Virus record (IMG/VR): IMGVR_UViG_3300017613_002316
Location: 1 to 27,279 of that record
Direction: 5' to 3' (one strand)
Length of the DNA stretch: 27,279 nt
DNA from: a virus
The notes under the pieces are model-generated. The model saw only the letters and a program-made list of their open reading frames with translations, was not told the DNA's origin and did no database searches. Positions 1 through 16,161 of this stretch are shown here, in pieces. The position numbers were made by a program, and so were the translations under genes. The stretch's first letter is position 1. Each line of letters starts with the position of its first letter.

Positions 1-420
1 ATATAAATTTTTCAATGCATCAAATTTGAAACGGCAATCTTCACCATTAATTTTTTCATAAATCTCAGGGTGATACCGGCCGCCATCAAATGATATTGAA
101 ATACCATAAGGAAGAACTTTCTTGAGTTCTTTCGCATAACTAAAATCAGCTAACTTTTTACCATTTGTTATCAAACTTACCATATGTTTGTGTTTATGAA
201 TTGTTTCAATAATTTCAAACAAATCTTCATTGAGAGTAGGCTCTCCACCTAACAAACGGAAAATAACAGTTTTCGGTAATTTTCTACATACTTCATCAAT
301 ATATTCAACCGTAATATCTGGCAAATTTCGATTAACAGCATAACAAATATTACAATTCATGTTACATCTGTGAGTAAGATCAATATAAAGCTGCCTAAAT
401 GTATTATCTTCTATCTTCAT
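1..420 (-). CDS. Radical SAM protein, N-terminal part (cut by window edge)
   Basis: The first 140 residues are in the window and the frame is open to the left edge. The cluster motif CX3CX2C is at C19, C23 and C26, in the context THRCNMNCNIC, which is the site where radical SAM enzymes bind a [4Fe-4S] cluster and S-adenosylmethionine. GGEP at residues 58-61 is the usual SAM-contacting motif after the second strand, and ITNG near 84-87 and SFDG near 110-113 match the following strands of the partial TIM barrel. The GGEP and SFDG motifs place it with the SPASM/anaerobic-maturase-like branch, but the C-terminus that would show auxiliary clusters is outside the window. Its ATG overlaps the stop of the upstream gene as ATGA, so the two are probably translationally coupled. 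The substrate is unknown. Confidence 0.88.
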   Translation of the reverse strand, partial: MKIEDNTFRQLYIDLTHRCNMNCNICYAVNRNLPDITVEYIDEVCRKLPKTVIFRLLGGEPTLNEDLFEIIETIHKHKHMVSLITNGKKLADFSYAKELKKVLPYGISISFDGGRYHPEIYEKINGEDCRFKFDALKNLY

Positions 421-1853
421 GTCAAAAGTTTCCTTATGTAATCTTCTTTGAGATTTCTTTTCCTCTTTTTTATCTCATCTGTATAGTTTCGATGATCCAT
501 TGACCACGTTTCATCTGCTATGAAACCCAAATTCCGTAACCGATTATAATAGGTATGGCCTATATGTATATGGTCGTATTTTAGTTCTTCACATACTCTT
601 GCGGCTTTTTTGAATGTCATGTCAGATGTTTCTGATACCCAATATCCATCAGACAATAAAGTATATCCCCATTTTCCTGGATTCATTGTCAATGGTGCTT
701 CTCTTTTTATAGAATCTCTAACAGGAATATACAAAGGTCTAATTGTTACAACATCAAATGGAGATTTCTCACCTTTACAGTATTTATACCATTTTTTAAT
801 ATCATCCTCATTATCATACGGTAAACCGGCTATAAAACAAGCAGATATATGAATTTTTCCACTCCAGATTTTTCTTAGATTGTTCAGTGTTTCAAGTTGT
901 ATATCAGGATGAGGACCCTTTTTGATATATTTAAGAGTTTTAGGTGTTAAACTTTCAACTCCGAATGCTAAACCTTCGGCACCAGCATCTAACATCATAT
1001 GACCTGTCTCTGGATTGTCAATAAATCCTTTCAATCTTGCAAATGTAACAAACTTTATTTTGAATGATAATTTAGAAAACATATTACACACATCTACTGT
1101 TTTCTTCAAAGTAGAGTTAAATGTTGAATCTGTCAACATATAGTTTTTGATACCATATAATTCATAATTTCTTGTAACTTCATCCTTCAATGTGTCAATC
1201 GACTTTACATTAGGATTATATCGTATATGTTTATGCTTACAAAACGCACAATGAAAAGGACAACCTCTTTCTATCTCTAACGGTAAATGCTCATCTTGAA
1301 ATAAATTATCTTCGGGTTGCCAACACATAGGGACTTTATGAAAATCAACCGGTAACATTGAAGAACAATCAATAACATTACAAAATATTTTCATATTTCT
1401 TTTAATTTGATAATTTACCAATTTTTTTATAACATATTCTGCTTCATCTAAAACCCAATAATCTATTTTTGGATATTCTCTTCTGGTATTTTCTGTATTT
1501 ATACCACCATAAATATATTTCAAATTCGGATTTTTCTTATCAAGGATTTTAAAGAAAATGTTCATAAAATCATCTGATCTTGGAAAATATTTCGATGGTT
1601 TTCCAAATAACGTATCAAGATATGGGTCCATTGAACAAAAATGTGTAGAGGAAAAACCAACAAAGAGTGTATTACCATCAATAAATTTATCAGCGATATT
1701 CTGAATATCATTTTTAGTCAAATATTCAAAGAATTCAACCACCTGAATTTTAAGACCTATTTTTCTCAAAGCATTTGCAATAATATAAGGCCCATAATTA
1801 CGTCCGAACCCAATCATCTTATTATCTGTGGAGAATATTATACCATCAACCAT
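417..1853 (-). CDS. Radical SAM protein with B12-binding-like N-terminal domain
   Basis: This 478-residue protein has two parts. Residues 1-145 look like a Rossmann-type domain resembling the cobalamin-binding domain of BchE-type radical SAM enzymes. They carry a glycine-rich start (MIGFGRNYGP, 13-22), VGFSS (65-69) and YGGIN (115-119), followed by DYWVLDEAE. No DxHxxG cobalamin-ligand motif is obvious, so B12 binding is uncertain. Residues 190-400 are the radical SAM barrel with CX3CX2C at C198, C202 and C205 (RGCPFHCAFCKHKH). The conserved E of the glycine-rich strand region lies in FGVESL. Length fits this class. It overlaps the upstream gene by 8 bp and the downstream one by 4 bp. Members of this class perform methylations, rearrangements or ring chemistry; the substrate here cannot be told. 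Confidence 0.87.
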   Translation of the reverse strand: MVDGIIFSTDNKMIGFGRNYGPYIIANALRKIGLKIQVVEFFEYLTKNDIQNIADKFIDGNTLFVGFSSTHFCSMDPYLDTLFGKPSKYFPRSDDFMNIFFKILDKKNPNLKYIYGGINTENTRREYPKIDYWVLDEAEYVIKKLVNYQIKRNMKIFCNVIDCSSMLPVDFHKVPMCWQPEDNLFQDEHLPLEIERGCPFHCAFCKHKHIRYNPNVKSIDTLKDEVTRNYELYGIKNYMLTDSTFNSTLKKTVDVCNMFSKLSFKIKFVTFARLKGFIDNPETGHMMLDAGAEGLAFGVESLTPKTLKYIKKGPHPDIQLETLNNLRKIWSGKIHISACFIAGLPYDNEDDIKKWYKYCKGEKSPFDVVTIRPLYIPVRDSIKREAPLTMNPGKWGYTLLSDGYWVSETSDMTFKKAARVCEELKYDHIHIGHTYYNRLRNLGFIADETWSMDHRNYTDEIKKRKRNLKEDYIRKLLT

Positions 1854-2391
1854 CTATTTCCATCCATTCTTCAATCGTTTTATCCTTGAATTTTTCATCA
1901 AGATATAACCCGCAAATATATTGTTTTCTGCCGCAAATATTATATTTCTCCGGTAAAATAACAAAACCTTTATTCCATTGTTTTATATGCCTGTGCATTG
2001 CCTTCTTATACTCATTTTGTGTAGTAATACAAATTTTGAATCCTTGTTCACGGCACCATTCTATCTGTTGTTTCAATATTTTTTTCCAATGCACCAATTT
2101 ATTCCTATATTCTCTAAGAACAAACAACCTTTTTGAAATTATCGCAACATCCTCATTATATTTTTCAATACCAGCTAATCCAATAATTTCTCCATTATCA
2201 AAAGCTAAAAACAACGGGTCAATTTTCTTCTGTTTATAGACACAATTAAGTAAAGATTCAGGATTATCCTTCCATGTTATTGAATCCATATTCAATCTTG
2301 TTTGGGAATTCCTGCAATCATTCATTGCTTTTCTGCAAAAAAACTTTATTGCATAAAAATATTCATCAAGTTCTTTTTGTCTTATTACCAT
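1846..2391 (-). CDS. GNAT-like N-acetyltransferase
   Basis: The 181-residue protein fits the GNAT fold. FLAFDNGEIIGLAGIEKY (61-78) looks like the β2-β4 hairpin. SKRLFVLREYRNKLVHWKKI (86-105) looks like strand β4 followed by the acetyl-CoA pyrophosphate loop and helix α3, although the loop is degenerate (REYRNK instead of R/QxxGxG/A). CITTQNE (121-127) matches strand β5. Members transfer acyl groups from acyl-CoA to amino groups, and in surface-glycan loci they commonly acylate amino sugars. It lies between the B12-type radical SAM gene (8 bp overlap) and the sulfotransferase-like gene (7 bp overlap). No clear Shine-Dalgarno site precedes the ATG, so it probably relies on coupling to the upstream gene. 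The weak acetyl-CoA loop leaves catalytic activity unproven. Confidence 0.6.
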   Translation of the reverse strand: MVIRQKELDEYFYAIKFFCRKAMNDCRNSQTRLNMDSITWKDNPESLLNCVYKQKKIDPLFLAFDNGEIIGLAGIEKYNEDVAIISKRLFVLREYRNKLVHWKKILKQQIEWCREQGFKICITTQNEYKKAMHRHIKQWNKGFVILPEKYNICGRKQYICGLYLDEKFKDKTIEEWMEIDG

Positions 2392-2921
2392 ATCGTATTC
2401 AACTTTTTAATTTCTATATTTTTGTCTTTCAAACCAAGAAAGTCCAATATCGGTTCCTTTTTTATTTTTGTTTGTAAAACTTTATCCGCAAATGATTTTA
2501 TATATCTCATGTTATCTTGAAATTTATCTTTTTTGGTTCTATTCAAAATATTTTTAATATCAATATCACTATAACCTTCCTTATTTTTCAGATAAAAATT
2601 TATAAGAGATTTCCTGTGTTCTTCTTTATTCCGTAAAAGATATATAAAATAAATTTCAGTAAAATATTCTTTTATTTCTTTTAAAACATATCCAAATTCC
2701 CGCATATATAAAAATGGTGTTCCATCAAGATAGAATTTATAATTTCTTGGCACGTCAAAGTATGAATCCAAATCTGGGGTATCAATTTCATATGGTTCAT
2801 CAAAATTTTTGAGTTTGAACATCTCCTTCCGTGGCCAAGTGTAAATTTCCTCGTATTCTTTCAAAAATGTCCAAAGAGAAGTTGTTCCTGTTCTCGGAGG
2901 CCCTATATTCAACCATATCAT
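2385..2921 (-). CDS. Sulfotransferase-like protein (PAPS-binding motif)
   Basis: The 178-residue protein begins with IGPPRTGTTSL (6-16). This is the 5'-phosphosulfate-binding loop (consensus PRSGTTxL) by which sulfotransferases hold 3'-phosphoadenosine-5'-phosphosulfate. FYLDGTPFLY (63-72) matches the conserved E/DxTPxY region. LLRNKEEHRKSLINFY (95-110) matches the 3'-phosphate-binding motif, with R97 and S105 as the expected contacts. At 178 residues it is shorter than usual family members of about 250-300, but it has a clean ATG that overlaps the preceding stop as ATGA, and its own TAA. The likely role is sulfation of a sugar or other hydroxyl made by the neighbouring glycan genes, which is inference from context. 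A kinase-like P-loop reading is less likely because both sulfotransferase motifs are present and correctly spaced. Confidence 0.8.
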   Translation of the reverse strand: MIWLNIGPPRTGTTSLWTFLKEYEEIYTWPRKEMFKLKNFDEPYEIDTPDLDSYFDVPRNYKFYLDGTPFLYMREFGYVLKEIKEYFTEIYFIYLLRNKEEHRKSLINFYLKNKEGYSDIDIKNILNRTKKDKFQDNMRYIKSFADKVLQTKIKKEPILDFLGLKDKNIEIKKLNTIW

Positions 2922-3628
2922 TTTTTACCTATCAGTAACCATCTGTGCCAATTTTTTGATAGTGATTTCACACCTGTTGTCCATACTTCTGATAATGCTG
3001 CTTTATTTATAAGCTCATCTAACGAATAAACATTATCTACATGTGTATCCCATTCCATATCTGAGGATTGTAATGCCACTATTTTACCATCCGGTATAAG
3101 TTTTGTCCACTTCTCAAGATAAATATGTTCACAACTGGTATTAATAATAAAATCTTGAGATATCTTGTCATAATTAATTTCAAACATATCCTGTGTTTCT
3201 GCATTACAACCAAACATTTCTGCTATCAATGTGCAATCTGGATCAATATCTGTTGTCAAAGCAGTATATTTGAAATACGCATAATTAGATAACATCAAAT
3301 AAAGAACACCATGCCAACCACCTACTATCAAAATATCAGGTTCGTATTTCAATCTAAGTTTATTCATACTCTGGATCAACCATTTTTTTGATTCTATTTG
3401 TCCTACCTGAAATGAATCAAAATTTTGATCTGGGAATAATAACATAGCATCCAAAACTGTCCTAAAATCAACAAACCTTCCATAATTTACTATATCCTCA
3501 AATGCTTTTTTGAGGTGTAGATTACAGTGATTTTTATATATTCTCGTAAATTCGGATAATGTAATATCGGCTTTACAATAATCCACTAATTTTTCAAATA
3601 TTATCCCTTTTTTTTCTACTGGTATCAT
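2918..3628 (-). CDS. Class I SAM-dependent methyltransferase-like protein
   Basis: The 236-residue protein has a helical N-terminal region (1-95) followed by a Rossmann-type methyltransferase core. DILIVGGWHGVLY (98-110) is the glycine-rich SAM-binding loop. TTDIDPD (125-131) supplies the acidic residue that normally holds the ribose. DMFEI (147-151) and FIINTSCEHI (160-169) correspond to the later strands. The C-terminal part (QSSDMEWDTHVDNVYSLDEL) matches the lid region seen in phage-encoded methyltransferases of this type. The target is not evident; small molecules or sugars are favoured over DNA because no DPPY-type motif is present. It ends 4 bp inside the sulfotransferase-like gene and starts 6 bp after the radical SAM gene upstream. 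The Shine-Dalgarno site is weak (GGTGA). Confidence 0.72.
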   Translation of the reverse strand: MIPVEKKGIIFEKLVDYCKADITLSEFTRIYKNHCNLHLKKAFEDIVNYGRFVDFRTVLDAMLLFPDQNFDSFQVGQIESKKWLIQSMNKLRLKYEPDILIVGGWHGVLYLMLSNYAYFKYTALTTDIDPDCTLIAEMFGCNAETQDMFEINYDKISQDFIINTSCEHIYLEKWTKLIPDGKIVALQSSDMEWDTHVDNVYSLDELINKAALSEVWTTGVKSLSKNWHRWLLIGKK

Positions 3629-3634
3629 TAGAAA

Positions 3635-4489
3635 TCACCAATTTTTGTGTGTGCAATCATCACATAAATTTTCTGTTATTTTGTCCCAAATATTTGGTCT
3701 TTTTGAACGGTTGAATGCCCAATAAATATTTTCTTTGAATTCTTTGAATGTATTATATGGTTTTATTATACCATTTATTCTTTCAGGGTATAAAGATTTA
3801 ACAAAATTACGGATCGATGAATGACAACATATATATAATTTGGCGTCTATACCCATACCTGCTTCTCCACTATCAATAAAACATCCCGCATTTTTCAGTT
3901 TTCCTGGTTTGGTTGGTTTTTCCAATAAATCCGAATACTCTCTTGACCCTATAATATGTGCATAATTCAATTTCAAACTTTTGCTGAATTCTTCAATTTC
4001 AGGTATTTGATGTTGATTATGCCTGAAAACAATAAACTGCATATTGGCGGTTCCACCAGAAGAAATAAATGTATTGATGTTTTTTATAACTTTATCAAAC
4101 GATGTTCCTCTATATTTTACGTGTGTTTCAGAATCAAGTCCGTCTATCCCAAAAAATACTTCATCATCATCATTACATATAATAGCAAATTTACTCCACC
4201 ATTTCTGCGTATGTGGTTCTCCATTTGTAAACATAACAAACCTGGCTCCTATACTATGTATGATATCTATCAAACGAAACAGATTTGGATGAAATATAGG
4301 ATCACCGAAACTACCACATAATAAAACCTTTTCAACATCAGCATTTTGCCAATCAAGCGACTCAAATTTATCTAAATCAAGATATAATTTTGGAATTTCA
4401 ACCTTCCCGGGGTATTTGTTTCTAATACATAGAGAACATTTAGCTTGACAAACTGTTGTCACTTCAACATTTACACTTTGAACTTTCAT
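3635..4489 (-). CDS. Radical SAM protein, 'CGxFGD' type
   Basis: This 284-residue protein carries CX3CX2C at C14, C18 and C21 (TTVCQAKCSLC). Instead of the usual GGEP it has CGSFGDP (58-64). FFGIDGLDSETHVKYRG (112-128) and FIVFRHNQHQI (152-162) follow. The same three blocks occur in the protein at 6292-7302, so the two are paralogues. C-terminal cysteines C203, C221, C222, C276 and C279 (LCDDC) could bind an auxiliary iron-sulfur cluster, as SPASM or twitch domains do. The reaction is unknown. Its ATG overlaps the upstream glycosyltransferase-like stop as ATGA, so it belongs to the same coupled decoration operon. Membership of the superfamily is secure; the function is not. Confidence 0.88.
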   Translation of the reverse strand: MKVQSVNVEVTTVCQAKCSLCIRNKYPGKVEIPKLYLDLDKFESLDWQNADVEKVLLCGSFGDPIFHPNLFRLIDIIHSIGARFVMFTNGEPHTQKWWSKFAIICNDDDEVFFGIDGLDSETHVKYRGTSFDKVIKNINTFISSGGTANMQFIVFRHNQHQIPEIEEFSKSLKLNYAHIIGSREYSDLLEKPTKPGKLKNAGCFIDSGEAGMGIDAKLYICCHSSIRNFVKSLYPERINGIIKPYNTFKEFKENIYWAFNRSKRPNIWDKITENLCDDCTHKNW

Positions 4490-5460
4490 CTGAAATCCTC
4501 TATAATATCAAAAATTTTATCATCTTTAGTCATTACAAGGCTATCAAAATCGTTCAGGCAGTCTTTCCATCTCCAGTAACCACCATCTTTGAGCTTACCA
4601 AAATCGTGATAAATTATTTTCTTATCAAACCATACACATTCCGGTAAAAGACGTGGAGATGGGTCCATATCCTTATCACCATACTCAGCCCACATACCAC
4701 GAATGGATGGTAAATAAAGCAAAGTATCAAATTTATACATGTAATCTTCAATAGGTGTTTTTAAAACATCCACATTATCACTCTCAAGGATTTTATATTT
4801 ATCATACCATCTGTCTTTTGTTGTTATCGTATAATGTTCAAATTTATACTTAGTCATGAAATTTTTCAAATCTTCAACAGGATAACATTTGTGATCCGTC
4901 ACCATATTCAGCATACAAGAATGTCTTACTTCTTTGTCTAACTGTTTCATGATATCAAAATACAATGACCTTCGATATTTTACATGTGGATAATCTCTGT
5001 ATGTTTCAAATACCCTATCATCATATAACATCAATACATTTTTTCGTTTTGTTTCAAATGCTTTTGTGAATTTATGCTCTGGTGGCAATTCCCATATTGT
5101 TATAACCTTTTTCCTGGGAAGAAAAATATCATAATAATACATTTGAGATGCAGAAGACATTGAAGGCGCAAATATAATGTTTGAGAAAATCTTTATTATC
5201 TTATTTGATCTTATGTAATCATTTTTATAAAATACATAGATATCCCTTTTCAATGATTCAATATCAACATCATACTTATCAGTTATTGCAAAATAAACAA
5301 CATCTGAAGGGACAATTGACATTATCATGAAGCAAACATCATACCCTTTTTCTTTAAACAAATGAAAATATTCAAAACTATCATAAAAAGAACCAGAACA
5401 AAGGTAATTAGCATCAAAATATATACATATATCATACTTTCTAATTTTTTTCATTCCCAT
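4486..5460 (-). CDS. Putative glycosyltransferase (GT-B-like), paralogue 1
   Basis: The 324-residue protein is not a textbook glycosyltransferase, but its C-terminal half is built like the donor-binding domain of GT-B enzymes. KFDTLLYLPS (243-252) is followed by DPSPRLLPECVWFDKKIIY (266-284), where the glutamate sits as the conserved acidic residue of retaining GT-B enzymes does, and then by KDGGYWRWKDC. The protein at 8219-9031 repeats this block closely (DPHPRLFHEC, then KDGSFYRF), so the two are paralogues. The N-terminus (ICIYFDANYLCSGSFYDSFEYF) resembles an acceptor-domain start. The gene overlaps its neighbours by 10 and 4 bp. A second ATG at 5454 would give a tighter ATGA overlap, and neither start has a good Shine-Dalgarno site. 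The donor sugar cannot be deduced; UDP-xylose is a candidate because of the nearby UXS-like gene. Confidence 0.6.
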   Translation of the reverse strand: MGMKKIRKYDICIYFDANYLCSGSFYDSFEYFHLFKEKGYDVCFMIMSIVPSDVVYFAITDKYDVDIESLKRDIYVFYKNDYIRSNKIIKIFSNIIFAPSMSSASQMYYYDIFLPRKKVITIWELPPEHKFTKAFETKRKNVLMLYDDRVFETYRDYPHVKYRRSLYFDIMKQLDKEVRHSCMLNMVTDHKCYPVEDLKNFMTKYKFEHYTITTKDRWYDKYKILESDNVDVLKTPIEDYMYKFDTLLYLPSIRGMWAEYGDKDMDPSPRLLPECVWFDKKIIYHDFGKLKDGGYWRWKDCLNDFDSLVMTKDDKIFDIIEDFR

Positions 5461-6323
5461 GGTTTATATGTATAATCCTCACACATCATCATTCTAACTA
5501 TTTCTTTATCACCCTTGCCATAATGATTCCAGTAATCTTTCAAACCATCATTCACATCATTAGGATGATCAACATAATGAACCTTTTTACCCATAATCAA
5601 AAATTCAAATATACTTCGGCCAAATTGTTCAAATTTGCTTCTGTCTGCTCTACGATAATAAATATACCCAGAATAATCAAACATCTTTTTAAGAGCATCA
5701 CCTTTCAGCCTGTCAACTACTCGTACAAGTTGATTACTTTGATTATAATAATCAACAATTGCGTCCGGCTCATTATCATCTCTTTCGCCCCTGAAGAACC
5801 ACTTTTGGTTATCACTAAAGGGAACTGTCAATAACGCCTGGATATTGATTTTCTTATAAAAGATAGTTGCCGGTATATATGGATATTTTATCTCAAATTT
5901 CTCATAGTTCACTTTTGGCATCAAAAACAGAATTTCGGAGAAGTGATGTTTATCCAATATTCTATTCAAATCACCAATGTCTTTCTTATAAAAGAAGTTA
6001 GTGATTCCATTCAAATGATAACTCAGCTCGGCATTATCAAAAACTATCAATTTTTTACATACAATCGGTTCAGCTTTTATCAATGAAACAAAATCTGTTA
6101 CAACATTTTTTCTTCGATGAACAATTACTTCATCTATTTCTTTTATTTTTCCTGTTTTATATCTTCTCAAAGAATTTTTAATGATGTCTTGTAAGTACCA
6201 TTTATTATAACAATTGAATACCACATCATAATCGTTACGAATCAAATAATCCTGAAAATCTAATAGGTTTATCGGAGAACCACTAATTCCTTTATGTTTT
6301 GAGACAATTGCTATTTTCTTCAA
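5451..6323 (-). CDS. Putative glycosyltransferase (GT-B-like), paralogue 2
   Basis: I place the start at TTG 6323, not at the upstream ATG 6365. TTG is preceded by GTGGAGGG with a 6-base gap to the GGAGG core, the best ribosome site in reach, and the resulting N-terminus (MKKIAIVSKHKGISGSPIN) matches that of the paralogue at 8219-9031 (MKNVVLFYIYKPLEITGSTIN). The protein then has 290 residues. ISGSPINLLDF (13-23) corresponds to the acceptor-side loop of GT-B enzymes. RSIFEFLIMGKKVHYVD (236-252) is the donor-side helix with a conserved glutamate at 240, as in the EX7E region. It overlaps the upstream radical SAM gene by 32 bp. The likely role is transfer of a sugar onto a phage or host surface molecule, inferred from motif and context. 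Confidence 0.6.
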   Translation of the reverse strand: MKKIAIVSKHKGISGSPINLLDFQDYLIRNDYDVVFNCYNKWYLQDIIKNSLRRYKTGKIKEIDEVIVHRRKNVVTDFVSLIKAEPIVCKKLIVFDNAELSYHLNGITNFFYKKDIGDLNRILDKHHFSEILFLMPKVNYEKFEIKYPYIPATIFYKKINIQALLTVPFSDNQKWFFRGERDDNEPDAIVDYYNQSNQLVRVVDRLKGDALKKMFDYSGYIYYRRADRSKFEQFGRSIFEFLIMGKKVHYVDHPNDVNDGLKDYWNHYGKGDKEIVRMMMCEDYTYKPWE

Positions 6324-7302
6324 AATAACCCTCCACTTGTTTTGTCCCACCATACCAGATTTCATCTTTCCAATCTGTTTTACACATCTTGTTACAAAAT
6401 TTTAATCTTTTATAATTATTCCATATGAATTCAAAGAATGGACTTTTCAAACATTCTTCCAAAGAAGATGTATATAAGTTTTGATGTTTTCTATATTTAT
6501 GATAATTCAATATCAAATCTCTATCACCTTGCCATAAAGTTTCTAATTTTCTTCCTTCGATATATTTCCGTGGGTCCATATATCCACAAGGCATAACAGT
6601 ACCATCAGAACAAATATACACTGACTTTCTTTTTATCAATTCATTGCACGTTATTTCTTGCTTGTCAGGCATTTCAGTTCTCGTTTGTACCGGTATTATT
6701 GTGGGTCTTTCATAAACATCATCATATATTCTTGATGTTTTGATTTTGAATACAACGCAACCAATTTCTTTTGCTATTTTTTCTGCTTCATATATTTGAT
6801 GCTCATTGTGTTTGAAAAGGATAAACTGCCAAAATGCACGTCCTCCGGCATCTATAAACGCTTTCATATTACGCATTGCAGGACCCCACTTGATGTTTTT
6901 ACGATAAATTTCATGTGTATCCTCAAGACCATCAAATGAAAAAATTACATGACTTCTCTTAGAAAAAGATAGAAGTTCCGCAACCTTTTTCCAATATTCT
7001 GGTTTATGACCAATACCTGTAGTTGCAACTTGAAACAATAATTTCTCATTTTCACTTTTTCTAATATGTTCTAAAACATCAAGAAAACGCCGATAGAAAA
7101 CATTATCTCCAAAATTGCCACATATTGTAAGTGTATGTATTTGTCTCAAAAAATCTATTGTTAGATTTCTCGTCAATACATCATAATCTAAATTTGCTCG
7201 TGATGGTACTCTCCAAAGATATCTTGCACAATATGGGCATCTTCCATTACATACAGATGTGAGTTCTAAATCTATTCTTCTGATTTCGTCAATATTCCAC
7301 AT
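6292..7302 (-). CDS. Radical SAM protein with SPASM-like C-terminus, 'CGxFGD' type
   Basis: The 336-residue protein binds the radical SAM cluster through C18, C22 and C25 (TSVCNGRCPYC). It shares CGNFGD (61-66), FSFDGLEDTHEIYRK (121-135) and FILFKHNEHQI (160-170) with the protein at 3635-4489, so the two are paralogues, about 50 residues different in length. The C-terminus adds a fuller set of cysteines: C219, then C231 and C239 in the hairpin CSDGTVMPC typical of SPASM domains, then C303 and C307. An auxiliary [4Fe-4S] cluster is therefore likely. The ATG is preceded by GGAG at an 11-base distance, and the gene starts inside the last codons of the UXS-like gene (31 bp overlap). The substrate is unknown. 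The context suggests a sugar- or peptide-modifying enzyme, but nothing in the sequence proves it. Confidence 0.88.
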   Translation of the reverse strand: MWNIDEIRRIDLELTSVCNGRCPYCARYLWRVPSRANLDYDVLTRNLTIDFLRQIHTLTICGNFGDNVFYRRFLDVLEHIRKSENEKLLFQVATTGIGHKPEYWKKVAELLSFSKRSHVIFSFDGLEDTHEIYRKNIKWGPAMRNMKAFIDAGGRAFWQFILFKHNEHQIYEAEKIAKEIGCVVFKIKTSRIYDDVYERPTIIPVQTRTEMPDKQEITCNELIKRKSVYICSDGTVMPCGYMDPRKYIEGRKLETLWQGDRDLILNYHKYRKHQNLYTSSLEECLKSPFFEFIWNNYKRLKFCNKMCKTDWKDEIWYGGTKQVEGYFEENSNCLKT

Positions 7303-8222
7303 TTATCATAATACTCCACTGTTTCTTTCAATCCATCAATCAAATCAACCCGTGGTGTCCACAATAACAACCGTTGAGCCTGTGATATATCAGGGCATCT
7401 TTGATTAGGTTCATCCTTTGAACGCTTCTTTTCATATACAATTTGAGCATCTTCATCTTCCATTATTTTCAATATTTCTTCTGCCAAATCAAAAATACTC
7501 ACATTGCCTGATGGGTCGCCTATATTTATAGGTGTTGTGACATTACTCTCCATCAATTTTATAAGACCATCAACACAATCATCAACATAACAGAATGCAC
7601 GTTCTTGATAACCATCACCGTAAATCGTAATCGGCCTGTTCAAGATAAAATTAGGCACAACACGACCATCATCTTCTGACATCCGTGGGCCATATACATT
7701 GAACAATCTGGCTATCCTGATATCAACATTGAACTGACGCTTGAAGCTCATAAACAACGATTCTGCTGCTCGTTTGCTCTCCACATAACAAGCCCGTGGA
7801 CCCAGATTATCTACATTTTCACCAAAGTATGTTTCTTTGATGGGTGTTCTAATGCTACCATATACCTCTGATGAAGATGTAAACAATATCCTGGCCTCAT
7901 ACTTCTGTGCCAACTCTAACATATTGAATGAACCATAAATAGATGTTTTCATTGTCTGCACCGGATCATTTTGATAATGTACCGGTGAAGCTGGACAAGC
8001 TAAGTGATATATTCTATCAAATTTACCTGCCAGTATCAAAAATGGTGAGCAAATGTCATGCTCTATAAATTCAAACCTAAAATTCGCCAAGCATTTTGTT
8101 AGATTATTCATGGTACTATTGAACATATTATCAATACACACAACATTATGTCCCTGTTCCAAAAGCCTTTCACATAATGGGGCACCAATTAGACCGGCAC
8201 CGCCTGTTACCATAATTTTCAT
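7272..8222 (-). CDS. uxs: UDP-glucuronate decarboxylase (UDP-xylose synthase) homologue
   Basis: This 316-residue extended short-chain dehydrogenase has the NAD-binding GGAGLIG loop (7-13) and an aspartate at 31 for the ribose. HLACPASPVHYQ (73-84) is a block highly characteristic of UDP-glucuronate decarboxylases. TSSSEVYG (115-122) and GPRACYVESKR (141-151) follow, with the catalytic YxxxK at Y146 and K150. ARLFNVYGPRM (171-181), DGRVVPNFI and YGDGYQERAF (201-210) complete the pattern. The enzyme oxidises UDP-glucuronate at C4, decarboxylates it and reduces the product to UDP-xylose. Length and motif order are complete, so it should be active. A perfect AAGGAGG site 5 bases before the ATG implies strong translation. 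It would feed a pentose donor to the three adjacent glycosyltransferase-like proteins. A related UDP-sugar epimerase activity is the main alternative. Confidence 0.9.
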   Translation of the reverse strand: MKIMVTGGAGLIGAPLCERLLEQGHNVVCIDNMFNSTMNNLTKCLANFRFEFIEHDICSPFLILAGKFDRIYHLACPASPVHYQNDPVQTMKTSIYGSFNMLELAQKYEARILFTSSSEVYGSIRTPIKETYFGENVDNLGPRACYVESKRAAESLFMSFKRQFNVDIRIARLFNVYGPRMSEDDGRVVPNFILNRPITIYGDGYQERAFCYVDDCVDGLIKLMESNVTTPINIGDPSGNVSIFDLAEEILKIMEDEDAQIVYEKKRSKDEPNQRCPDISQAQRLLLWTPRVDLIDGLKETVEYYDKCGILTKSEE

Positions 8223-9042: not shown

Positions 9043-9621
9043 CTATTCAAAAATTTGAACAAACACTTTGAATCTTTCATCTATATCATCAACGCTGTTG
9101 AGTTTATGTAGATCGCTTTCAAAAGTTCTATACTGATTGTACCACCCAGATATGCTTTCAAGTTTATCCTTACTGTTCAATAACCTTTCTAACAAATCAA
9201 TGGTTTCAATATCACCTGCATCAATGATATCAAGATATTTGTGTCGCCTATTTTTATTTGTGATAACGAACCCCTTTTCAATAAGGTCTAAATTACAAAC
9301 CAAAAACTCATAAAGTTCAAACAATGAAACAGCATTCAACCGTGTTGATATATATTCCCTGCCTTTGTTTAATATTCGCTCTCTATGACTTGTTATAGGA
9401 TCATAGTCAACTATAATCAAATCTTCTTTGATTGGTTTTCCCGCAATGTCTTTGGGATACTGAATTTGTGCTGCATGAAGTTTATTTTTGACAAAAATAA
9501 ACAATGCTTTATCAACTTCGGCCACCATTTCGGGATCAACCACATAATCATCTGGCTGAATTGTGGTATCAGTGATTTCCCATACACTTCCTTTATCTTG
9601 AATTATCAATATATTTTTCAT
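9043..9621 (-). CDS. Hypothetical protein, unknown function
   Basis: I do not recognise this 192-residue protein. The start is well supported by GAGG 7 bases before the ATG. It begins MKNILIIQDKGSVWEI, like a Rossmann or receiver-type first strand, and its next strand-like stretches are ALFIFVKN (39-46) and DLIIVDYDP (67-75). The second half is largely helical and charged, with helices around YISTRLNAVSLFELYEFLV and ETIDLLERLLNSKDKL. There is no signal peptide, transmembrane segment or metal motif. It lies between the split S74 chaperone gene and the first glycosyltransferase-like gene, at the junction of the fibre and decoration blocks. It could be a chaperone or a divergent nucleotide-sugar protein, but nothing decisive is visible. 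Confidence 0.6.
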   Translation of the reverse strand: MKNILIIQDKGSVWEITDTTIQPDDYVVDPEMVAEVDKALFIFVKNKLHAAQIQYPKDIAGKPIKEDLIIVDYDPITSHRERILNKGREYISTRLNAVSLFELYEFLVCNLDLIEKGFVITNKNRRHKYLDIIDAGDIETIDLLERLLNSKDKLESISGWYNQYRTFESDLHKLNSVDDIDERFKVFVQIFE

Positions 9622-9636
9622 TTCTTTTCCTCACTC

Positions 9637-9948
9637 CTATTTCGGATAGTTACTTTTATGTATTTCTGAAATACAATTCTTATATAATCTGGCGTTTTCC
9701 TGTTCCAGTTTATCAACCTTTTCTTCCAATTCTTGAATAGATTTTATCAATGGGCCGATGAACTCATTTGTGTTTATGGCATAGAAACCATTTCTCATTA
9801 CCACAAAAGCATATTTTTCTTTGTCGGCAACTTCGTTTACATCTTGTGCTACAAGTCCAACATGCTCTTTACCGTCAGACAATGGACCGGATTTATATCT
9901 CCAGGTGCATATCTTCAACTTTTTGATGAACTCTAAACCAAAATCCAT
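9637..9948 (-). CDS. S74-type intramolecular chaperone, C-terminal part as a separate gene
   Basis: The 103 residues are the main body of a peptidase S74/endosialidase-type chaperone domain. FGLEFIKKLKICTWRYK (3-19) and HVGLVAQDVNEV (29-40) are hallmark blocks, followed by FYAINTNEFIGPLIKSI (56-71) and a terminal coiled coil (ELEEKVDKLEQENARL, 73-88). Such domains fold and trimerise tail fibres or spikes and are then released by self-cleavage. The conserved first motif SDRRLK, which carries the cleavage-site serine, is missing here and instead ends the preceding gene in the same reading frame. Only a TAA stop and four codons separate the two. The ATG has a strong Shine-Dalgarno match that overlaps the stop (TAAGGAG, 8 bases from the ATG). 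It is therefore probably made as a separate, trans-acting chaperone. Confidence 0.88.
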   Translation of the reverse strand: MDFGLEFIKKLKICTWRYKSGPLSDGKEHVGLVAQDVNEVADKEKYAFVVMRNGFYAINTNEFIGPLIKSIQELEEKVDKLEQENARLYKNCISEIHKSNYPK

Positions 9949-9963
9949 AACAAATTCTCCTTA
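9949..9963 (-). promoter_or_regulatory. Stop codon overlapping a Shine-Dalgarno site inside a split S74 domain
   Basis: On the minus strand the TAA ending the Cys-rich gene runs directly into GGAG, giving TAAGGAG, a full match to the anti-Shine-Dalgarno sequence of 16S rRNA. Eight bases later comes the ATG of the chaperone gene, in the same frame as the gene before it. The segment both stops one reading and restarts the next, so it decides that the S74 domain is made as two chains, or as a fusion if TAA is read through. Confidence 0.75.
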
Positions 9964-10518
9964 CAAATATTTTATATCGGTTTTCAATCGCCTATCTGAA
10001 TAATTACAGTTACAAGTACACGCATAATTACAGTTACATGTGCAATAATTACAGTTACAAGTACATGCATAATTACAATCGCAAAGACACTCGGTTCTTA
10101 ATATATTCACTTGATCACGCATTTCGTTTATTGTATTAACTAAAATCGGTGCCCCTGCTGACATATATTGAGTGGTTGACCATGTTGGCGACCACGCATC
10201 ACATTCATCAAGACCTTCCACAAACATTGTCCAATCAGAAGAATATATAATATCTTCTGTGGTTTTGGGTCCTGCCTCTGCATACCACGCATCCCAGCCG
10301 GATGGTTTTGATGCACCACGTCTGCCTATCTCATAATTTATATACCACGCTAAATAATAGTAATGATAGTTTTCTTCAACAGGATCATCTGTATTTATTG
10401 TATGACCATTACAATAACCCTGTGCTGCACTATATGAACTTCGCCACGAAACCGGGCTCAATGGTGGGTCATATCCTGGATGTGATGGGCAAGAATTTGA
10501 ATGTCCTCCGCAAGCCAT
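9961..10518 (-). CDS. Cys-rich tail fibre/appendage protein ending in the S74 start motif
   Basis: The 185-residue protein starts from an ATG with AGGAGG 9 bases upstream. Residues 1-140 are rich in W, Y and G, with IGRRGASKP near 64-72 and ILVNTINEMRDQVNILRTEC (125-144), a helical stretch like those before fibre trimerisation regions. Residues 144-173 hold 12 cysteines in tandem CxCxCNY units. The last residues, SDRRLKTDIKYL (174-185), are the first motif of an S74 chaperone, where S174 corresponds to the self-cleavage serine. The rest of that domain is the next gene in the same frame. The protein is most likely a fibre or appendage tip. The cysteines could bind metal or be crosslinked; the two SPASM radical SAM enzymes encoded just upstream make enzymatic modification conceivable, but this is inference. 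Confidence 0.8.
   Translation of the reverse strand: MACGGHSNSCPSHPGYDPPLSPVSWRSSYSAAQGYCNGHTINTDDPVEENYHYYYLAWYINYEIGRRGASKPSGWDAWYAEAGPKTTEDIIYSSDWTMFVEGLDECDAWSPTWSTTQYMSAGAPILVNTINEMRDQVNILRTECLCDCNYACTCNCNYCTCNCNYACTCNCNYSDRRLKTDIKYL
10000..10092 (-). repeat. In-gene tandem repeat encoding CxCxCNY units
   Basis: Four imperfect copies of 24, 21, 24 and 24 bases lie head to tail, each starting ATAATTACA on the plus strand (at 10000, 10024, 10045 and 10069). All lengths are multiples of three, so copy-number change keeps the frame. The first three copies are nearly identical and the fourth has diverged. They encode residues 143-173 of the Cys-rich protein, three cysteines per unit. The pattern suggests growth by slippage or unequal recombination under selection for the protein repeat. 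Confidence 0.9.
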
Positions 10519-10521
10519 TTA

Positions 10522-11685
10522 TCAAGTCCTCCTAAGTAAATCTAATCCTTTCTTTACCATATCATTGATATGATAAAACTTGCAAAGATTAGGTTGATTT
10601 GTATAATCTCGCCACTTATCTAAATATTTTTCCTTTTTGCTACGTTCATATTTGGCATGATTACATCTTAGACAAAACTCAACATCACAATCATGACACC
10701 AGCCTTCATCATCAATATCCTTACCAAAATATTTACTTGCCTTTTCAAGTTCTTCAATTATACTATCATTATTTATATTTCCGATAAGATGTTTTTCCTT
10801 ACCGTCACCATATAGGCAACCGTGGCAAGTGTAAATCTGTTCATCTGTATCAACCGCAACCATGTGTTGCCCGGAGACACATATGGCACGGTTAGGTATA
10901 AACCATTTGAAAAAAGTTAGATATTGAGGCAAGTCTGCTGATTTTATCTTCACCAAAGAGTTAATATATGGTGTTTTTAATTCTTCTGCTGCTATCTTCA
11001 CCAAAGACACTTCTAATGCCTCACAATATTGAAGCATTTCATCTTTACTATATCGTTCTGATGAATAATAATCAATGGTAGGGAAGTAATTTACATTCTT
11101 ATAGAAACCGGTTGATGTAAGCTCACTGGCTAACCTTTTTATATCCATATAGGCATCATACATGTGTTTGAATGCTTCTGCCCTGATCGTTGACTTGATA
11201 ACATATGGTATCCTGTTTACATCTAACCATTTTATACTTTCAATAACTTCCTTTGAAGTCAACTTACCGGAAGCACGTCTATACATATCATGAATAGGCG
11301 CACCATCATAGGAAATCTGGATACATACTTTTGGATGCACACCAACCATTTCATCTTTATAAGCAATCAATGCCTCTTTCAAATAACCATGTAAATCATA
11401 TCCATTACTGAATATGAAAAATCTTATGGGCTGAAAACAATTTAGTTCATCTATGAGATTTACAATTTCTGCTGCTTTGATTGTCGGCTCACCGCCCCAA
11501 AAATTTATACATAACAAATCATAATTATCTTTGAAAAAAGATGAATCCAATAACTTATCTATAAATTTCTTGAAGTTATCATATTCGGTGAACTCTTTCT
11601 TACCTTTTGCATCAGTAAAGCAATAAGAACATTGAAACTGACACTCTCTTGTAACATTCAAATCAACATGGTATTCTCTATCCAT
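10522..11685 (-). CDS. Radical SAM/SPASM-like enzyme (anaerobic maturase-like)
   Basis: The 387-residue protein has CX3CX2C at C15, C19 and C22 (TRECQFQCSYCF) and WGGEPTIK (63-70) for SAM binding. IFSNGYDL (91-98) and QISYDGAP (123-130) are the following barrel strands. The C-terminus resembles a SPASM domain: C269, C287 and C290 around the hairpin VAVDTDEQIYTCHGC, then C330, C333, C338, C341 (CHDCDVEFCLRC) and a late C368. The canonical CX9-15GX4C glycine is replaced by glutamate and the second half reads CX2CX4CX2C, so it is a variant with probably two auxiliary clusters. Relatives include sulfatase-maturing enzymes and peptide thioether or C-C crosslinking maturases. GAGAGG lies before the ATG. 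It sits directly upstream of the Cys-rich fibre gene, and the TTAGGAGG of that gene lies within this gene's end. Confidence 0.9.
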   Translation of the reverse strand: MDREYHVDLNVTRECQFQCSYCFTDAKGKKEFTEYDNFKKFIDKLLDSSFFKDNYDLLCINFWGGEPTIKAAEIVNLIDELNCFQPIRFFIFSNGYDLHGYLKEALIAYKDEMVGVHPKVCIQISYDGAPIHDMYRRASGKLTSKEVIESIKWLDVNRIPYVIKSTIRAEAFKHMYDAYMDIKRLASELTSTGFYKNVNYFPTIDYYSSERYSKDEMLQYCEALEVSLVKIAAEELKTPYINSLVKIKSADLPQYLTFFKWFIPNRAICVSGQHMVAVDTDEQIYTCHGCLYGDGKEKHLIGNINNDSIIEELEKASKYFGKDIDDEGWCHDCDVEFCLRCNHAKYERSKKEKYLDKWRDYTNQPNLCKFYHINDMVKKGLDLLRRT

Positions 11686-11983
11686 TGATTTCCTCTCTTA
11701 TTTTCTCTGCCATTGCTTCAACTTCTTCTGACACATTTGAATCATGAATTGTCTGCGGTGAATGCATACTTCCCGCATCCTCTGGAATAAACAAGTCAGC
11801 TATAAGCCCTTTTGCTATTATCAAACAAACATTACTTGCCATAATGTCAACCTCTTTCAAATCCATTGAAATATTGAACAGACTTTGAGCGCACCTGTGC
11901 CTTATGAGTTTTTCCTGATCGCTGGTTCCTGCTTCACATTCACATTCAATTTTACTTGCCATTACTTCGATTCCTTCTGTCAT
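11678..11983 (-). CDS. Small protein between two radical SAM/SPASM genes, unknown function
   Basis: I do not recognise this 101-residue acidic, mostly helical protein. It has four cysteines: C14 and C16 as CEC, C31 and C53. Two short look-alike segments occur, EVMASK (6-11) and DIMASN (46-51). The C-terminus SEEVEAMAEKIREEING is a charged helix. The start is sound, with AAGGAG 6 bases before the ATG. It overlaps the upstream SPASM gene by 4 bp (ATGA) and the downstream one by 8 bp, so the three are tightly coupled. Such placement is typical of either a maturase substrate or an accessory binding partner. No classical leader/core split, repeat core or RiPP recognition element can be seen, so neither role is established. 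Confidence 0.72.
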   Translation of the reverse strand: MTEGIEVMASKIECECEAGTSDQEKLIRHRCAQSLFNISMDLKEVDIMASNVCLIIAKGLIADLFIPEDAGSMHSPQTIHDSNVSEEVEAMAEKIREEING

Positions 11984-13097: not shown

Positions 13098-13778
13098 TTA
13101 TTTGATTATACAATCAACAAGTTTTTCGTATGGTGACGGATTAGTTTCAAGCGCAACCGCTACCTTGTAAATAAGTTCTTCATGGTTATCTGCCTTGCCA
13201 CAACCATTTGTAGTTGCAACAATAATATCTCTTTTGTTGACAGGGCCAATGATCCTGATAGGCACACGGCCAACGAGGCCAACCAACTGACCTTCTGCAT
13301 TTTGATTCATTACAAACCCTGGTTTTTCAGACACAACACCAACAAAACAATCAGTCAAACCTGATGTCTTTGTCAAATCAAATTCTTCCTCATAAGCTAC
13401 TTCAAGAATTGTGCCAATTGGAAATTCTTCTCTTGTTGTGTATTTTTCTGCCAGGTCTGCATATGTAGCTGTTGTAACTGTACCTGTAAATGTTGTTCCA
13501 GTAATTTCCAGCCATTTATAACTGCCACTGCCAAGACTATGTGTATCATCTGTCCCTGGAAGAAAATTACCTGCTATGCTTTGATTGGTGTTATTCAACA
13601 GAAAGGTTGAAGCATCTCCGTAAGCCGCTTCTTCCCAATCAGAACTTTTTCCAATATGAATTTTATAAGTATCTTGAGCATATATTATCCGACCTTCATC
13701 TCCTGTGGCCCATACCGGTTTCGTTGATAATTTTTCAGCCCAAAATTTACCCTTCAGTTCTATTTCTTGATATTCCAT
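13098..13778 (-). CDS. Tail fibre-like protein with shared N-terminal docking module
   Basis: The 226-residue protein is modular. Residues 1-52 (GKFWAEK, then DEGRIIYAQDTYKIHIGKSSDWEE) match the N-termini of the three tip proteins at 14577-16161, so this segment is probably a common docking module. GTDDTHSLGSGSYKWLEITGTTFTGT (75-100) is the loop repeat common in phage fibres ahead of chaperone or tip domains. YADLAEKYTTREEFPIGTIL (106-125) and LVGLVGRVPIRIIGPVNKRDIIV (165-187) form a β-rich module frequent in structural proteins of T4-like phages. No catalytic residues are claimed. The ATG follows GAAGGAGG closely, and the gene overlaps the 13747-14103 gene by 32 bp. It is probably a fibre or connector subunit. 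Confidence 0.72.
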   Translation of the reverse strand: MEYQEIELKGKFWAEKLSTKPVWATGDEGRIIYAQDTYKIHIGKSSDWEEAAYGDASTFLLNNTNQSIAGNFLPGTDDTHSLGSGSYKWLEITGTTFTGTVTTATYADLAEKYTTREEFPIGTILEVAYEEEFDLTKTSGLTDCFVGVVSEKPGFVMNQNAEGQLVGLVGRVPIRIIGPVNKRDIIVATTNGCGKADNHEELIYKVAVALETNPSPYEKLVDCIIK

Positions 13779-14576: not shown

Positions 14577-15098
14577 CTACTGATACTCAGCAATACAATA
14601 TTTTATGTGATATGGTCTCCATGACCCACCCATAGAATGTTCATGTCCACCATCTGAACTAACTGTATGAATATGATTATATGTTGCTAAATCATAATAT
14701 CCTGAACTCCTATGATAGATATAAGAGGTGGGTGTTCCAACAGTATGTGAATGACTGCCGCTTTCACTCATACCAGAAATTACCCAATCACCCGTTACAT
14801 CACCAATTTTTGAATCATCATTTGTAAACAAAATTGCTTTATCAGTATGTGTTGTGTCTAAATTCCATCCAGTAGGCAAAGGGTATGATCCAAATAACGC
14901 TTTCGTATTTTGATCTAAAATATCATACGGTGTTGCAACATTAATCCATTGATTTGTAGTACCAATACATAATCGTTGATTGCTTTTAGAATATATCAAT
15001 CTTCCAATATCTGAAATATTATGGTCATATGTATCTTTGTCCGGTACAGAATGAACTTTAAATTTATTTTGGGAATTTATTGTATAAAATTTACTCAT
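14577..15098 (-). CDS. Receptor-binding tip protein with HxH motifs, paralogue 1
   Basis: The 173-residue protein has two parts. Residues 1-50 (GRLIYSKSNQRLCIGTTNQW) are the module shared with the fibre protein at 13098-13778. The rest is a collar/tip domain: ALFGSYPLPTGWNLD, WVISGMSESGSHSH, NHIHTV, GGHEHS and GGSWRPYHIKYCIAEYQ at the end. Three HxH motifs (HSH, HIH, HEH) are present. In the T4 long-fibre tip gp37, HxH motifs from three chains hold iron ions along the axis, so a metal-stabilised trimeric needle is the likely structure here. Its ATG overlaps the previous stop as TAATG, with AAGGAG 10 bases upstream. It is most similar to the next paralogue. Confidence 0.8.
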   Translation of the reverse strand: MSKFYTINSQNKFKVHSVPDKDTYDHNISDIGRLIYSKSNQRLCIGTTNQWINVATPYDILDQNTKALFGSYPLPTGWNLDTTHTDKAILFTNDDSKIGDVTGDWVISGMSESGSHSHTVGTPTSYIYHRSSGYYDLATYNHIHTVSSDGGHEHSMGGSWRPYHIKYCIAEYQ

Positions 15099-15625
15099 TA
15101 TTGAAGAACTCCTTCACAAAATTTTATATATTCTGGTCTCCAATTACCATCAAATGTATGGGTATGAATACCATCCGCCATAATAGAATGCCTGTGGTTC
15201 CATAGTGGTCTGTAAACCTTATGAGCATCATATTTTTTAAGAGATATTTTGACAGTTGCTCTATTTGTTCGACCACCATGATCATGTGCATTTGAATTAT
15301 TCATTTGTGAAATCACCCAAGTTCCTGATTCTGCTCCGATTGATCCACTACTATTTGTAATCAACACAACTTCATCATTTCTGTTTCCAATGTTCCATCC
15401 AATAGGTAGTGGATATGAACCAAATAACATTTTAGCACCTTGTTCCATAACTGAATATTCTATTGCCAAATCTCTCCATTCTGTGCTTGTTCCTATGTAA
15501 ACTTTATCATTTGATTTTGAATACACTAAACGACTTTCATCATCAGAAGTATGACCAATCAAATTGATATCATCTACTCTTTGAATCCAAATTTCACCTT
15601 GTCCGTTTATTTCATGAAAATCCAT
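15098..15625 (-). CDS. Receptor-binding tip protein with HxH motifs, paralogue 2
   Basis: The 175-residue protein has the same layout as its neighbours. SRLVYSKSNDKVYIGTSTEW (residues 31-50) belongs to the N-terminal docking module and MLFGSYPLPIGWNIG is the junction. The tip follows, with HDH, HRH and HTH, ending FDGNWRPEYIKFCEG. I use ATG 15625 rather than a TTG 51 bases upstream: AAGGA lies 5 bases before this ATG, the protein then aligns with its paralogues from residue 1, and the gene starts 2 bp after the upstream stop. The C-terminal half between the first and second HxH differs strongly from the other copies, as expected for a region that contacts host receptors. Confidence 0.8.
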   Translation of the reverse strand: MDFHEINGQGEIWIQRVDDINLIGHTSDDESRLVYSKSNDKVYIGTSTEWRDLAIEYSVMEQGAKMLFGSYPLPIGWNIGNRNDEVVLITNSSGSIGAESGTWVISQMNNSNAHDHGGRTNRATVKISLKKYDAHKVYRPLWNHRHSIMADGIHTHTFDGNWRPEYIKFCEGVLQ

Positions 15626-15627
15626 AT

Positions 15628-16161
15628 TTATCCTTGATAAACACCAACTGCTAATTTGACACTGCTGGGCCTCCAACTACCATCAAAAGTATGACTATGA
15701 TTTCCCGTATTAGTAAATGTGTGTTTATGGCTTTTGTTTGCCATTTTATTATCACCTGTCCTAACTTTGGCGTTGACATTTGTATCAGACAATCCTAATC
15801 CTGCTGTTGTAAAATGTTTATGATTACCAGCAGAAGAACCTCCTGTTATTATCCAAGAGCCACCAATATCACCTATTTGGTTTGAATAATCTGTTAGCAT
15901 AATAACTTTATCATCTACATCTTTTATATTCCACCCTGTAGGTAAAACGGATGCAAATATTAAATTCGTTCCAATACTAAATAAATCATCTATATCTGAT
16001 ATTTTTTGCCACTTTGATGAAGTACCATAATAAAAATGATTATTGTCCAAATCATATAATATTCTACCTTCATCATTTGCTGTCCATACAACATCAACAA
16101 TATCTGAAGTCCGTTGAGGCCAAAATTTACCTAATATATTAACTGTCCCGTAAATTTTCAA
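15628..16161 (-). CDS. Receptor-binding tip protein with HxH motifs, paralogue 3
   Basis: The 177-residue protein starts with TTG, preceded by GGAG at a 7-base gap. GKFWPQRTS and DEGRILYDLDNNHFYYGTS form the docking module, closest to the module of the 13098-13778 protein. LPTGWNIKDVDDKVIMLTD leads into the tip domain with HKH, HKH and HSH and the terminal FDGSWRPSSVKLAVGVYQ. It is the most divergent of the three at the C-terminus, which lacks the cysteine found before the end in the other two. The gene overlaps the 16139-16501 gene by 23 bp. Three copies in a row suggest either a hetero-assembled tip or alternative tips. Confidence 0.78.
   Translation of the reverse strand: MKIYGTVNILGKFWPQRTSDIVDVVWTANDEGRILYDLDNNHFYYGTSSKWQKISDIDDLFSIGTNLIFASVLPTGWNIKDVDDKVIMLTDYSNQIGDIGGSWIITGGSSAGNHKHFTTAGLGLSDTNVNAKVRTGDNKMANKSHKHTFTNTGNHSHTFDGSWRPSSVKLAVGVYQG

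Follow-up and report, generated by a model that had tools for sequence, protein, structure and literature searches.

Putative Radical SAM Modification of the Cysteine-Rich Tail of a Small Phage Protein with a Split S74 Chaperone

Phages seem to carry a so far undescribed system for the chemical maturation of one of their own proteins. The window analyzed here is the whole stretch of 27,279 nucleotides from IMG/VR virus record IMGVR_UViG_3300017613_002316, and its relevant features are collected in Table 1. The preferred reading, which we hold to be somewhat better than evenly supported, is that phage-encoded radical SAM enzymes modify the cysteine tail of P0001, a small S74-processed structural protein, most likely by thioether cross-linking. 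It is highly probable that these enzymes act on P0001 in some way; thioether formation is the favored chemistry, with about an even chance of being correct. The main clue is the pair of adjacent radical SAM genes, which the original prediction for this DNA had left unconnected to the cysteine repeats.

Table 1. Features of the window that belong to or adjoin the proposed maturation module
Feature	Position	Strand	Basis
P0001, Cys-tail protein, 185 aa, proposed substrate	9961..10518	-	ORF call; relatives L001-L025, L028-L064 and others
Cys array, four CxC[DN]CNY units	10000..10089	-	Sequence, TRF, shuffle tests
N-terminal part of P0001, three small helical modules (predicted), NxLRxxIxxExxRR-like repeat	10090..10518	-	AF2, alignment A3
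S74 stub SDRRLKTDIKYL, 12 residues, Ser/Lys pair S174, K179	9964..9999	-	Stub-type relatives; dyad spacing
Rest of S74 chaperone domain and C-terminal coiled-coil-like helix, own GGAG ribosome site	9637..9948	-	PF13884; PHROGs
rSAM2, radical SAM/SPASM enzyme, 387 aa, CX3CX2C and further conserved Cys	10522..11685	-	PF04055 E=7.9e-8; alignment A2
Small 101-aa ORF between rSAM1 and rSAM2	11678..11983	-	ORF call; similarly placed small ORFs elsewhere
rSAM1, radical SAM/SPASM enzyme, 368 aa	11980..13086	-	PF04055 E=6e-13; alignment A1
p192, conserved companion downstream of the Cys gene; beta N-terminal, helical C-terminal part	9043..9621	-	tblastn relatives; AF2
Fiber-type neighbor with Peptidase_G2 (another self-cleaving chaperone family)	13098..13778	-	PF11962 E=8.4e-8

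The C-terminal sequence of P0001 is ...TECLCDCNYACTCNCNYCTCNCNYACTCNCNYSDRRLKTDIKYL*, and the protein of 185 residues ends in ECLCDCNYACTCNCNYCTCNCNYACTCNCNYSDRRLKTDIKYL. Twelve cysteines are found within 30 residues (C144-Y173), and the four CxCxCNY units are followed directly by SDRRLK, exactly as originally described. The units start 8, 7, and 8 residues (24, 21, and 24 nt) apart and the last one is 21 nt long; the spacing of 24, 21, 24, and 24 bases claimed earlier results from counting in the serine after the last unit, which extends it to 24 nt. Units 2-4 are nearly identical, in agreement with the earlier statement that three units are alike. The tandem repeat was detected independently by TRF (10000-10077, period 24, score 110). 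The strict 21-nt pattern occurs 3 times versus 0.00 expected from 100 dinucleotide shuffles, and 12 cysteines in 30 residues were reached in 1 of 100,000 shuffles of the P0001 protein. The repeat is kept in many diverged phages. The consensus over 323 units is C-[T/P]-C-[N/D]-C-N-[Y/F], and most units end in Asn-Tyr. Asn or Asp is found at +3 for two of the three cysteines of the consensus unit and for 8 of the 12 cysteines of the window core; the same spacing is present, more weakly, in several non-CNY cores.

The original prediction assumed a long fiber fused to its chaperone, and this was not borne out. P0001 is a short protein with small helical modules predicted in its N-terminal part, and the chaperone is a separate gene. 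The AF2 model, a test of the tail-fiber assumption on the monomer only, is helical with a disordered tail. Its mean pLDDT is 68.5, with values of about 70-89 in the N-terminal helices and about 40 in the Cys array, which is predicted to be disordered in the unmodified monomer. No fold match to the N-terminal part was obtained in the PDB or BFVD using Foldseek (E<=0.001). Profile searches of P0001 gave no Pfam match, including none to a metallothionein family at E<=0.1, and the sole PHROG match is phrog_26958, the family of Campylobacter phage CPt10_1891.

P0001 stops (TAA) 12 residues after the repeats, and the remainder of the chaperone is the next ORF, which has its own GGAG site and an ATG after this TAA. 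The ORF matches positions 16-55 of the PF13884 model (E=1.2e-8) and also tail spike and tail fiber PHROGs. The earlier placement of a chaperone cleavage site at this motif is supported: SDxRLK is the start of an S74 chaperone, and after cleavage before the serine the repeats would form the new C-terminus. At the start of the domain, Ser and Lys are five residues apart, which is the spacing of the cleavage dyad in endosialidase and MYRF (PMC3742443). Since the stub keeps this dyad, both catalytic residues are on the client and the remaining fold would be supplied by the other gene, so that cleavage would occur in trans through the stub and the separate chaperone. The domain is not contiguous on one polypeptide because a stop codon follows the stub.

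A stub of exactly 12 residues, SDxRLKxxIxY[LMIF], is present in 20 of 22 stub-type relatives, and those of the other two are 15-16 residues long. For about 11 stub proteins, the chaperone ORF is located within 30 nt or right behind a tandem run of such proteins. Equivalent split ORFs are present in loci L001, L003, L011, L013, L023, and L025. In L023/L163, one chaperone ORF comes after a tandem run of four Cys proteins that all have stubs, and this arrangement suggests that one chaperone may serve several clients. The S74 domain is fused in 15 relatives, and no S74 domain was recognizable in the remaining fetched relatives. Programmed readthrough or frameshifting was rejected as a general explanation of the split, since the spacing and frame from stop to start vary among loci (the window is in frame; L001, L011, and L013 are not); the start and GGAG site of the downstream ORF also count against it. 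Sequencing error was rejected because the same 12-residue break occurs in about 20 relatives. The SDxRLK start with its dyad, the chaperone domain, and the tail fiber/spike PHROG relatives are shared with the S74/endosialidase tailspikes that carry an intramolecular chaperone. Unlike in those proteins, two genes share the domain in many members here, with the break after residue 12, and the client is a small helical and Cys-rich protein rather than a beta-helical fiber. S74 is a well-studied self-cleaving folding domain, and its division between two genes would be new.

The window is a phage tail locus with baseplate wedge, hub, and PAAR-type genes upstream in transcription order, and the two radical SAM genes are situated between these and the Cys gene, from which rSAM2 is separated by 3 nt. 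Both enzymes have the general features of radical SAM/SPASM maturases, with PF04055 scores over the cut-off and invariant cysteines in alignments A1 and A2. The TIGR04085 SPASM model is over its cut-off for rSAM1, and the SPASM Pfam model is under its cut-off. The nearest NCBIfam families of both enzymes are peptide maturases, all scoring far below the curated cut-offs. The best match is PapB (NF047865), with 112.4 bits for rSAM1 and 61.7 bits for rSAM2 at a curated cut-off of 340. All members of both families match the PapB model, and all those of A1 also match the nif11-peptide, SCIFF, CXXX-repeat, and quinohemoprotein-maturase models. The closest solved structure to rSAM1 by sequence is 5wgg (E=3.2e-12), the SCIFF maturase CteB.

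The small ORF between the two enzymes has no family match in Pfam or NCBIfam, and Pfam profiles gave no match pointing to an RRE domain in the partner ORFs. Homologues of the Peptidase_G2 fiber-type neighbor also precede the module in several loci. Relatives of p192 were found by tblastn at the same place in many loci, 11 of 12 members match phrog_25260, and its AF2 model has a pLDDT of 90. No function was assigned to p192 from this structure, which gave only weak matches, some of them to DUF4376 phage proteins, and common helical arrangements in the PDB. Following p192 in L016, L018, L020, L021, L023, L024, and L025 is a conserved run composed of a P-loop-like gene, a radical SAM gene with a CNY(K/D)CEFC-type motif, a GT2-like gene, and more radical SAM genes. 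An A-type Fe-S carrier (PF01521) is encoded inside the radical SAM operon of L018 (L018:3884-4213), which suggests phage support for Fe-S enzyme maturation. A similar ORF was observed at L088:10131-10463.

The association of repeats and enzymes was measured in IMG/VR, where the protein search returned 25 loci and a two-unit DNA pattern returned 37 stretches. Of 33 records searched whole at E<=1e-30, one is a Fletchervirus without repeats; among the 32 repeat-bearing viral records, rSAM1 is present in 28 and rSAM2 in 27. The records lacking either enzyme are mostly fragments, and one of them, L058, has another radical SAM gene adjacent. The fetched locus contains rSAM1 or rSAM2 for 65 of 85 Cys-rich candidate ORFs; the strand is nearly always shared, and the distance is often 0-15 nt. 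At many loci, rSAM2 in particular is this close to the Cys gene. The association is reciprocal: a CxCxC protein is encoded in the fetched stretch of 41 of 49 contigs with a strong rSAM1 match (E<=1e-50). The remaining eight include L102 and L110, with a different Cys core in that place; L075, with a truncated gene; two Campylobacter phages with repeats elsewhere in the genome; L088 and L098, which end too early; and L069, a true exception. The recurrent gene order is rSAM1, a small ORF, a third and shorter radical SAM gene, rSAM2 (or rSAM2 first), a small ORF, the Cys protein, the S74 ORF where split, and p192. Among 84,980 species genomes, the double repeat was found in only one, on a 3-kb contig from a metagenome-assembled genome; this contig contains rSAM2 as well and is probably phage DNA.

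Other Cys cores replace the CNY repeats at some loci, for example CKCDYNCTCNVDCTC or CHSNCHSD at strong rSAM1 loci and CICNSDCSCNLVCACHNDCGCNY or CPCNCNF at rSAM2 loci. The core type changes 4 times on the rSAM2 tree, the minimum possible, versus a shuffled mean of 14.7. This agreement, to which near copies and vertical descent contribute since many contigs are near copies of each other, shows co-inheritance of core type and enzyme. Linkage of a precursor gene to its modifying enzyme, the mark of RiPP systems, is thus found in the gene order, the co-occurrence, and the tree. Further very Cys-rich phage ORFs (e.g., CDCDRC, CQTCD, CDGDxC) were observed near more distant radical SAM genes in L129, L134, L135, L138, L139, L140, L204, and L205, and Cys-rich phage targets may form a much larger family.

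Cultured Campylobacter Firehammerviruses, among them CPt10 (L015) and CP21 (L014), carry the repeats together with rSAM1 and rSAM2. The complete genome of NCTC12673, from the sister genus Fletchervirus, contains none of the three, a contrast that counts as one evolutionary event. In INPHARED, tblastn with P0001 or the bare repeats gave nothing under the low-complexity filter, and a DNA search recovers the Campylobacter phages. The 15 INPHARED records with rSAM2 are all Campylobacter phages, and each also matches the stretch holding the repeat gene. This gene, CPt10_1891/CPT_0180 (phrog_26958), shares the Cys repeats and the genomic presence of rSAM1 and rSAM2 homologues with the window; it differs from P0001 in being longer (534 aa), in lacking the S74 stub, and in lying far from rSAM1 in the CPt10 record (17.8 kb versus 160 kb). 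The gene was noted in 2010 only as the one with an in-gene 21-bp repeat, its protein is not listed among the CP220 virion proteins identified from gel bands, and the radical SAM genes of these phages, 11-12 in number, were ascribed to host metabolism (PMC2853527). Neither a function nor a radical SAM link was proposed for CPT_0180/CPt10_1891 in the literature found. In CP21 (G014, 78875-80009), rSAM2 contains several stops and is split into two annotated CDS (CP21_110/111), which is either sequencing error or decay. Another Cys-rich ORF, of 123 aa with CKNCINCSNCKNC repeats, is located in CP220 (L103:16839-17210) about 6.8 kb from rSAM1.

Among related phages, the repeat is conserved and its number varies, as the proposal of copy-number change under selection had anticipated. 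Compared with its near copies L073 and L074, locus L072 carries an additional unit, and WX1 has four units versus six in other Campylobacter phages; units are gained or lost in these phages without drift of their residues. Within-array pN/pS is biased because units are picked by protein pattern, and orthologs were therefore compared. For the six-unit array among nine Campylobacter phages, pS is 0.214 and pN is 0.000, with pN/pS of 0.13-0.18 in the gene flanks. Purifying selection on the repeat residues is thus shown in cultured phages.

In the proposed pathway, P0001 would be a small structural-type protein composed of a helical N-terminal part, a Cys-rich core, and a short S74 stub, with the helical part as the body and possibly the docking site for the enzymes. 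Two or three phage radical SAM/SPASM enzymes, two of them encoded near the gene in the window, would modify the core after translation. The core, predicted to be disordered when unmodified, would be the modification zone, where cysteine sulfurs would be joined to carbons of nearby residues, most likely as thioethers; the Asn/Asp of C-x2-[N/D] are the best-guess acceptors. The chaperone from the next gene would act last and in trans, trimerizing P0001 and cutting before SDxRLK to leave a rigid cross-linked tip. A broader version is possible, with somewhat less than an even chance: a virus-encoded class of radical SAM maturation, with several enzymes stapling a virion adhesin at its Cys-rich tip and with the S74 chaperone split into a 12-residue client tag and a trans-acting chaperone for multiple clients.

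Thioethers are favored because Asn or Asp occurs at +3 from cysteine and because PapB joins the cysteine sulfur to the beta carbon of Asp in CX3D and tolerates other spacings of 0-6 spacer residues (PMC9413430). As in the ranthipeptide systems PapA/PapB (freyrasin) and SCIFF/CteB, radical SAM/SPASM enzymes are encoded beside a Cys-rich substrate. In contrast to these systems, the scores are far under the family cut-offs, two or three radical SAM enzymes are present, the substrate is a larger S74-linked phage protein with C-x2-[ND] rather than CX3D, no RRE was found with Pfam, and the module is restricted to phages as far as searched. No CX3D/E motif of PapB-type substrates is present in the window core. 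The module would be of the radical SAM/SPASM peptide maturation type and is not a member of the PapB family by cut-off or motif. No description linking radical SAM enzymes with a phage tail or RiPP was found in the literature, and no PMC paper contains the repeat strings except one that is irrelevant.

Several observations count against the preferred reading. The two enzymes fall far short of all curated maturase cut-offs, CX3D, the native PapB target, is missing from the window core, no RRE was found with Pfam, and the small partner ORFs have no family match. The distance of rSAM1 from the repeat gene in CPt10, the disrupted rSAM2 of CP21, the single evolutionary event behind the Firehammervirus/Fletchervirus contrast, the near copies among the contigs, and the absence of the repeat protein from the CP220 gel bands also weigh against it, and CxC arrays could simply bind metal. 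The CxCxCNY repeats might coordinate a metal (Zn, Fe, or another) in the manner of a metallothionein and stabilize a fiber tip or spike, the radical SAM enzymes modifying something else or inserting or modifying the metal site. The dense CxC spacing, the perfectly conserved cysteines, and the PAAR-type protein in the same window, a known kind of metal-tipped spike, are consistent with such a tip. We consider it unlikely because it leaves unexplained the reciprocal same-strand link with two specific radical SAM/SPASM families and the match of core type to the rSAM2 tree; there is also no Pfam metallothionein match, and the repeat differs from metallothioneins in its almost invariant Asn/Asp and aromatic residues. 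Enzymatic thioether formation, one of three options in the original prediction, is raised well above metal binding and disulfide knotting by strong genomic support. The enzymes could instead act on the core by formylglycine formation from cysteine, epimerization, Tyr/Asn modification, or C-C cross-linking. Their matches to anaerobic sulfatase maturase, cyclophane-forming, and other maturase models, together with the terminal Asn-Tyr of most units, make this the rival with the best prospects, at perhaps one chance among several; against it, both families score highest with the model of a thioether-forming enzyme, and cysteine dominates the core in every variant.

The product could also be a RiPP-like effector made by the phage, for example against competing phages or bacteria, with the helical part in the place of a leader and the S74 stub in that of a follower. 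A conserved front with a variable Cys core resembles RiPP precursors, and several relatives are without the stub; the fused S74 domain in about 15 relatives and the place beside tail genes suggest a structural role, so that an effector is rather improbable. Least probable of all is an ordinary disulfide-rich or simple-repeat protein whose radical SAM neighbors occur by chance or serve host metabolism, the role proposed in Campylobacter phages (PMC2853527), even though these phages contain many other radical SAM genes. It is opposed by the reciprocal link with two specific families, the gene order, and the tree agreement. Moreover, the reducing conditions of the cytoplasm disfavor disulfides during assembly.

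If modification by the radical SAM enzymes is correct, phages would make covalently cross-linked and probably very stable virion or secreted parts by their own radical chemistry. For the many radical SAM genes of Firehammervirus-type phages, a defined substrate would replace the vague metabolic role. The gene and both enzymes occur together in cultured Campylobacter phages, which makes the idea directly testable.

A second radical SAM group is located in the window at 417-8222, with a B12-type enzyme at 417-1853 and enzymes near TIGR04317 at 3635-4489 and 6292-7302. Sulfotransferase-like, methyltransferase-like, and sugar epimerase genes are found in the same region, and the group is perhaps for surface glycan or tail modification. 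Three tandem similar fiber-like ORFs of 173-192 aa, with no PHROG matches, are present at 14577-16161.
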